Source: a virus
Virus record (IMG/VR): IMGVR_UViG_3300021961_008390
Coordinates: 1-30,398 of that record
Reading direction: 5' to 3' (one strand)
DNA: 30,398 bases
Shown: positions 1,685-4,797 of the stretch, one piece after another
How positions within the stretch are numbered: position 1 is the first letter of the stretch
Layout of the letters: each line of letters opens with the position of its first letter
Position numbers and translations under genes: made by a program
The notes under the pieces: generated by a model
Database searches by the model: none
Seen by the model: only the letters and a program-made list of their open reading frames with translations
Told to the model about the DNA's origin: nothing

Positions 1685-3627
<1,943 letters not shown>

Positions 3628-3649
3628 TATTAATTTAAAATAAACAAAA

Positions 3650-3817
3650 ATGAACAAGCAAGAATTATTCGAACAAATCGACGAATTGTATCAGAGTTTT
3701 GTAGCAAGCCATAACGGAACTACTAAAAAATCACAAGCACAAGCAAGAAAGTCTATCGGAGAGGTTAAAAAATTAATCACAGATTATAGAAAAGCTTCAA
3801 CAGCAGAGAGTAAATAG
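3650..3817 (+). CDS. Small histone-H1-like DNA-binding protein (putative)
   Basis: A 55-residue ORF starting at ATG 3650 and ending at TAG 3815-3817. The sequence is helical and Lys/Arg-rich in its second half, with 'SQAQARKSIGEVKKLITDYRK' spacing close to that of the Hc1/histone H1-like proteins common in Bacteroidota (typically 55-65 residues, with a pattern like 'AA..RARK....LK....FRK'). These proteins bind DNA without sequence specificity. It lies 22 bases behind groEL and ends just before the GC-rich island. I infer a nucleoid-type or packaging-related role. The resemblance is by pattern, not by alignment, so an unrelated small basic protein remains possible. Confidence 0.6.
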   Translation: MNKQELFEQIDELYQSFVASHNGTTKKSQAQARKSIGEVKKLITDYRKASTAESK

Positions 3818-3819
3818 GC

Positions 3820-3873
3820 AAGGACCGAGAGGGGAGGGGGCGTTAAAACCTCCTCACCGAAGGTGTCACGCGC
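3820..3873 (+). ncRNA. GC-rich structured element (hairpins, possible pseudoknot)
   Basis: A 54-base stretch with 34 G/C in otherwise AT-rich DNA. Bases 3831-3837 (GGGGAGG) pair with 3849-3855 (CCTCCTC) with one G-U pair, leaving an 11-base loop. Next to it CACC (3855-3858) and GGTG (3862-3865) close a GAA loop. GCGT (3840-3843) in the first loop can pair with ACGC (3868-3871), which would make a pseudoknot. No U-run follows directly, so it is not a standard terminator. It could be a leader regulating the gene at 3898, a 3' stability element for the groEL transcript, or a small RNA. Confidence 0.4.
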
Positions 3874-3897
3874 AAATTTTAACAAATAAACAAACAT

Positions 3898-4248
3898 ATG
3901 ACAATTTTAACATCAATTATTTTAGTGTTAGTTATAGTAGCAGGAACAGCAGGACTTGCATACTATATGCAAAGAGGAACAAAAACAATGTCGGAATTCA
4001 AAGCAGACTTTGACAACAACAAAGAAGCTCAAGAATTAGCAGACCTAGCCAAAGAATTGTACAATAAAGACCTACGTCCTGTTGTAGCAAAGAAAGCTCC
4101 TAAGAAAGAAAAGGTAGCAGAAGTAACACCAGAAACTACACCAGTAGAAGTTAAGGCAGTAGTAGAAGAAGTTAAGAAAGAAACTAAATCAGAGTTTCCA
4201 ATTGACAAGCCTAAGAAAAAAAGAAAATACTACCCTAAGAAAAAATAA
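3898..4248 (+). CDS. Single-pass membrane protein with charged Lys/Glu/Pro tail, unknown function
   Basis: I do not recognise this 116-residue protein. Residues about 3-24 form one strong hydrophobic segment (TILTSIILVLVIVAGTAGLA), which would be an N-terminal membrane anchor or an uncleaved signal. After a short acidic/helical stretch (about 33-58) the rest is low complexity: alternating Lys, Glu, Pro and Val, ending in a strongly basic KKKRKYYPKKK. Such a tail could bind nucleic acid or the inner membrane face. It follows the GC-rich structured element by 24 bases and precedes another small unknown gene by 12 bases, so the two are probably co-transcribed. Confidence 0.75.
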   Translation: MTILTSIILVLVIVAGTAGLAYYMQRGTKTMSEFKADFDNNKEAQELADLAKELYNKDLRPVVAKKAPKKEKVAEVTPETTPVEVKAVVEEVKKETKSEFPIDKPKKKRKYYPKKK

Positions 4249-4772: not shown

Positions 4773-4797
4773 AAAGAGGCCTTGTGCCTCTTTTTTT
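4773..4797 (+). terminator. Intrinsic (Rho-independent) terminator
   Basis: A perfect 8-bp stem, AAAGAGGC (4773-4780) with GCCTCTTT (4786-4793), closes a 5-base loop CTTGT, and a run of seven T (4791-4797) overlaps its 3' side. It ends the small-gene unit and separates it from the lysis module. Confidence 0.9.

Follow-up and report, generated by a model that had tools for sequence, protein, structure and literature searches.

A GC-rich segment at 3820-3873 of the window (the whole stretch of viral DNA analysed, 30,398 nucleotides) lies in a structured element that, judging from comparisons with other phages, appears to belong to an undescribed family shared by Immutovirus-type phages and several phage groups further removed from them. 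The hairpin in its second half is, by the covariation of its stem across copies, a helix maintained by compensatory changes. We tentatively read the element, at slightly less than an even chance, as a cis-acting structured signal in phage mRNA that sits at gene borders and most likely sets transcript ends. What is new is the family, which falls under the general heading of phage structured cis RNA; a new mechanism is not demonstrated.

The element and its locus

With 34 G/C among its 54 bases, the segment exceeds every other 54-mer of the window (mean 18.3, s.d. 3.5), which bears out the GC-rich island described in the first-pass annotation. The surrounding gap was likewise correctly described as non-coding: its 80 nt (3818-3897) separate two same-strand ORFs (3650-3817 and 3898-4248). 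The features of the locus are as follows.

3650-3817, plus strand: upstream gene, 55 aa, histone H1-like Hc1 (profile match of 22.3 bits, just under the Pfam cut-off of 23.5)
3818-3886, plus strand: whole element, from the G-rich tract through the pyrimidine tract and the second hairpin to the conserved tail and the AT-rich end, kept in relatives according to the conservation profile
3822-3832, plus strand: GGACCGAGAGG, possible small 5'-side hairpin CC-GAGA-GG, read from the sequences
3829-3843, plus strand: G-rich tract ending in GGCGT; GGCG in 76 of 87 copies; three reduced copies retain the tract as well
3849-3855, plus strand: pyrimidine tract CCTCCTC, 3' strand of the first hairpin as drawn; pyrimidine-rich in nearly all copies
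3855-3865, plus strand: second hairpin CACC-GAA-GGTG, with strong covariation and a fixed C(GAA)G loop
3866-3873, plus strand: conserved tail T-CACGCGC, kept with few exceptions in the copies reached via flanking genes
3874-3886, plus strand: AT-rich end AAATTTTAACAAA, partly conserved as RWWTTY-NAC-N-AA
3898-4248, plus strand: downstream gene, 116 aa with a hydrophobic N-terminus, a small membrane-protein gene whose immuto relative is annotated as FliL-like
4773-4793, plus strand: terminator-like hairpin with a T-run, three genes downstream, from terminator prediction

In the first hairpin as drawn, GGGGAGG at 3831-3837 (or AGGGGG at 3835-3840) faces CCTCCT(C) at 3849-3855, and the last base of CCTCCTC is shared with the second hairpin. 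The drawn pseudoknot joins GCGT at 3840-3843 to ACGC at 3868-3871. The possible 5' hairpin, as read from the sequences, is confined to the Immutovirus-like group and missing from the other groups. The exact segment folds with an energy of -18.8 kcal/mol (z -1.16) and 3818-3880 with -20.9 (z -1.91), and the minimum-energy fold differs from the model of two adjacent hairpins; by folding thermodynamics alone, the segment would not stand out. An 18-nt core with up to three mismatches occurs once in the window, against no occurrence in 100 shuffles. A chance GC island was ruled out by conservation together with covariation: because the second hairpin covaries, the element is not an accident of composition.

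The window phage is related to Flavobacterium phage immuto_2-6A (Immutovirus), with approximately 70% identity over the region of the locus, where the genes of immuto run GroES, GroEL, a small hypothetical protein, the gap, and the small protein annotated as FliL-like. At 1685-3817, the window encodes the phage's own GroES and GroEL followed by the Hc1-like protein, and the order groEL, Hc1 or another 55-aa gene, and element recurs in L058, L117, L236 and L241. The GC-rich hairpin and following U-run of an intrinsic terminator were not found at 3820-3880, where no terminator was predicted; directly 3' of the segment stands just AAATTTT (3874-3880). The earlier view that this copy is not a terminator thus agrees with our analysis. 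The hairpin at 4773-4793 is the probable operon end, and since it lies three genes downstream, the element of the window is probably inside the operon. No tRNA or tmRNA was found.

Conservation of the element in relatives

Relatives were gathered in two ways, via the downstream protein and via the Hc1-like protein, so that neither sample was chosen by the motif. Most relatives reached via the downstream protein have a nearly identical element, in contrast to a variable stop codon, spacer and subsequent leader. Those reached via the Hc1-like protein show similar conservation and, in addition, include phages without the element. Where it is present 3' of Hc1, a terminator comes after it in some phages and is missing in others. 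In L213, a plain terminator ends Hc1 where the element would be, and in others of the element-less relatives Hc1 runs directly into the next gene. The relatives lacking the element at the home locus had no convincing copy elsewhere. Behind an Hc1 match ending at 4165 in L209, the place of the element is taken by another stretch in which a hairpin can be drawn (TCACATCGAAAAATACGGTGTGA).

The second hairpin and the conserved tail

The strongest structural evidence came from the second hairpin. Across 43 sequences, its pairing was intact in 95.3% of cells (70.9% after shuffling), and 39 cells were doubly changed, compared with 12.9 in the shuffles. Most of these sequences were selected by sequence alone. 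Of four divergent sequences included manually, two are shifted by one base and thus count against the helix. The covariation score was 0.574 versus 0.146, and slid registers paired in just 21-32%. A separate alignment for the covariation of this hairpin gives weaker evidence, since its sample was partly chosen by pairing. The stems around the loop include CACC/GGTG, CGAC/GTCG, CAAC/GTTG, CGCC/GGCG, CTCC/GGAG, CCCC/GGGG, GCAC/GTGC, AACC/GGTT and others, and the C(GAA)G loop is almost invariant, one copy having a GCA loop. 

The hairpin is followed by a highly conserved tail, NCACGCGC-RWWTT, which over 57 clustered copies extends into a partly conserved RWWTTY-NAC-N-AA. The CGCG of this tail belonged to the search pattern in the pattern-chosen samples, and the copies derived from flanking genes confirm the tail, with exceptions that include L207, L211 and L212. 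In one phage with two copies, the stems differ and the tail is identical. In the minimum-energy fold of one relative, the 3' arm of the second hairpin pairs with the tail instead; by eye, this alternative hairpin looked inconsistent across the stem types, and it was rejected. In L019, L038, L057, L073, L086 and L091, an upstream GGTG could pair with the CACC of the second hairpin, so that two mutually exclusive folds can be drawn.

The first hairpin, the pseudoknot and a third hairpin

Of the two adjoining hairpins proposed in the first-pass annotation, both can be drawn, but the check for covariation over related phages supported the second hairpin and neither the first hairpin nor the pseudoknot. 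The first hairpin is drawable in most copies and forms poorly in the lineage of L047, L054 and L079. Its own strands paired no better than strands swapped between copies in three permutation test sets, none of which was significant, and the power of the test is low because one strand is G-rich and the other C/T-rich.

The letters of the GCGT/ACGC pseudoknot are present, with the tail ACGCGC nearly constant, but the pairing showed no covariation among the 87 copies, and the 11 copies without GGCG still have the tail. On the other hand, three reduced copies without the second hairpin (immuto near 64,780 and two relatives) retain GGCGC...ACGCGC. That these copies keep both strands, rather than any covariation, suggests a GCG/CGC pairing between the G-rich tract and the tail. 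The reduced second copy of immuto (MW353175.1, about 64770-64830, equal to L278:1271-1330; GGGGGCGCTAATCTGAACTCGTCACGCGC) precedes a gene of the FGGSYFG family described below. Similarly, L309 has the G-tract, the pyrimidine tract and the tail, and no second hairpin.

One group plausibly has a third hairpin, located behind the tail, with the stems CATTT/AAATG, CGGAT/ATCCG, CATAT/ATATG and CGAAT/ATTCG. Overall, it was found in 48 of 123 copies versus 19% in shuffles, many of the stems consisting of A and T only; the copy in the window has none.

Extent of the family

We scanned IMG/VR with the 18-nt core pattern, again allowing up to three mismatches, and obtained matches in at least 119 viral stretches; a looser pattern gave further variants among the viral matches listed. 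From the matches listed, we assembled a collection of 87 non-redundant copies from IMG/VR phages, any two of which differ in 4 or more of 65 bases. The element is also present in immuto, an isolated Flavobacterium phage. A covariance model of the second hairpin and the tail identified one to three copies in 38 of 40 phage contigs, and all strong matches within one contig shared one strand.

A longer pattern, searched against 84,980 bacterial and archaeal species genomes, gave three matches. Two of them were dismissed as chance, being GC-rich sequences without the G-tract; the third, a credible copy, is on the 61-kb contig L233, which belongs to the bin of an uncultured bacterium. In Rfam 15, the window had no match at gathering scores, 3780-3910 had no credible match at E-values up to 10, and 20 relatives had none at E-values up to 1. 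This, together with the covariation of the second hairpin, upholds the earlier suggestion of a new RNA element. We found no earlier description in the openly licensed literature, and a report elsewhere is possible.

Placement of the copies

The copies lie mostly at gene borders and on the coding strand, and some of them precede start codons. A same-strand ORF stop is found 20-50 nt before the second hairpin in 46 of the 87 copies, compared with 6.7% at random places, and 10-19 nt before it in ten more. An intrinsic terminator follows the element in 17 of 87 copies (1.2% at random); in some phages, belonging to one group, these terminators mostly begin 9-11 nt after CACGCGC, a preference beyond the reach of the single sequence seen in the first-pass annotation. 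A terminator in front of the element was found in two cases (L246 and G008), and about 26 of the 87 copies fall within ORFs of 45 aa or more on the same strand.

Some sites recur: those behind the Hc1-like gene (in several groups, the gene next to groEL on its 3' side) and those before and behind a gene family with an FGGSYFG motif. Members of this family (approximately 170-200 aa, MSKLDFYPMMTPRE...GAFGGCYFG..., e.g. L118:8167-8715 and relatives L291-L310) often have the element on one or both flanks, and they had no match in Pfam (0.05) or PHROGs (0.01). Family scans showed no common function among the genes neighbouring the copies. Certain small ORFs (LKGWGFD...SPPKVPRAFSTNVSND...EEWCHYGGLPSPKAYM) hold the element in frame (L118:8678-8881, and L062, L101, L105, L139 and L239), and the third hairpin, with a stem that varies, may lie within the coding sequence of such GWGF-type ORFs. 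The sequence TCTTTGACATATTGG, which we take to resemble one from Bacteroidota rRNA leaders, occurs 53-71 nt behind the second hairpin in L082 (minus strand, about 1996), L152:10302 and L244:105. With only these three close contexts, an rrn-like boxA was rejected as a partner of the element.

Proposed function and alternatives

An invariant loop and tail, combined with a stem that changes freely and with a location at gene borders, are what one would expect of a cis-acting mRNA signal bound by a factor. We propose that the transcript may fold at the element, and that a putative host or phage factor may bind the fixed loop and tail. The bound factor would then fix a transcript boundary by processing, protecting or ending the upstream message, and the expression of the upstream genes would thereby be separated from that of the next gene. 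In the window phage, the groES-groEL-Hc1 message would be divided from the small genes behind it.

Our preference for this boundary role rests on two observations: behind Hc1, the element is kept irrespective of a following terminator, and in L213 a plain terminator replaces it. Several observations fit less well: copies within ORFs are difficult to reconcile with a signal for cleavage or a 3' end, the two phages named above have a terminator ahead of the element, and at the site before the FGGSYFG gene the neighbour that stays constant is the downstream gene rather than the upstream one. Moreover, any element filling an intergenic gap would to some extent be found beside a stop codon.

The first alternative is a nascent RNA resembling put of phage HK022, which would fold on leaving the polymerase, bind it and alter pausing or termination downstream. 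The put RNA has approximately 70 nt and two stem-loops, occurs twice per genome, and requires no dedicated protein; its binding site on RNA polymerase is the beta' zinc-binding domain, and it suppresses termination (PMC9378689). We regard this as unlikely for our element. Nevertheless, it keeps about half the weight given to the boundary role, since action on nascent RNA better explains both the spacing preference ahead of terminators and the presence of copies within ORFs; the one to three copies per contig are also close to the two put sites per genome (PMC9378689). However, put sits just downstream of early promoters, whereas the copies found here are at many internal gene borders or inside ORFs, some directly before a terminator and some behind one. 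In addition, the equivalent of the second put stem, the first hairpin here, has no support from covariation.

Alternatively, the element could act at the DNA level, as a coding-strand site such as an N4 hairpin-type promoter or a protein-binding site, with the RNA structure irrelevant. The C(GAA)G loop is of the C(GNA)G type, as is the GCA loop of the single deviating copy, which would be consistent with such a site, and a stem may covary in single-stranded DNA as well. We consider this improbable, given that the placement relative to stop codons and the spacing to same-strand terminators indicate a transcript and that a promoter with a terminator 10 nt further on would yield only a very short RNA.

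There is a slim chance that the 3' end of the message gives rise to a small trans-acting RNA or decoy, with the tail as its pairing region. The tail is conserved and apparently single-stranded, and one group has terminators at a preferred distance, but many copies, including that of the window, have no terminator or end behind them, and the two copies in one phage combine different stems with the same tail. A short mobile or selfish insertion without a function for the phage would account for several copies per genome in varied contexts, some within ORFs; it is very improbable, because distant phages share the sites behind Hc1 and before the FGGSYFG gene, selection for pairing constrains the stem, and neither target duplications nor clean empty sites were seen. 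Finally, translational recoding at the Hc1 stop (readthrough, frameshift or bypass) has next to no likelihood: the window does have a 23-codon open stretch through the element after its TAG stop, but stop identity varies (TAA/TAG), stops occur ahead of the next gene, and the spacer to the element varies from 0 to about 10 nt, so that the frame behind the Hc1 stop is not conserved, which also ruled out a coding or readthrough peptide.

In the most far-reaching reading, the copies might constitute a new, phage-restricted class of RNA, approximately 55 nt long and embeddable in coding sequence as well as between genes. The host polymerase or a phage factor would recognise it in the nascent transcript, and it would set gene-by-gene borders of expression; we consider this doubtful. 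Structured RNAs common to many phages are seldom catalogued, and this one appears nearly absent from the scanned bacterial genomes. Given that an unannotated copy is present in an isolated phage-host pair (immuto_2-6A and Flavobacterium sp. LMO8), its function is directly testable. The element may show how large Flavobacterium phages split polycistronic messages such as groES-groEL-Hc1.

Comparison with known systems

RNase III signals of the T7 type are long double-stranded hairpins that are cut by RNase III and occur several times per genome. Like our element, they are structured RNAs between phage genes, present in several copies on a polycistronic message. However, the stems here, of about 4 and 6-9 pairs, are too short for a classical RNase III substrate, no double-stranded stem of about 20 pairs was found, and it is the loop and the tail that are conserved. 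C(GNA)G loops form very stable DNA mini-hairpins and are present in the promoter hairpins of phage N4. The promoter hairpins of the N4 virion polymerase share with the element a short hairpin, a C(GNA)G loop and a changeable stem, but they are DNA signals at promoters, whereas the context of stop codons and terminators argues for RNA in our case. The curated motifs of Rfam 15, both those associated with phages and those of bacteria, are likewise conserved structured RNAs with covariation, and none of them gave a credible match to the element. Lastly, although HK022 put has two proven stems and here the second hairpin alone is proven, putL and putR resemble our element in being phage RNAs of approximately 55-75 nt that are drawn as two neighbouring stem-loops and occur in few copies on the gene strand (PMC9378689).
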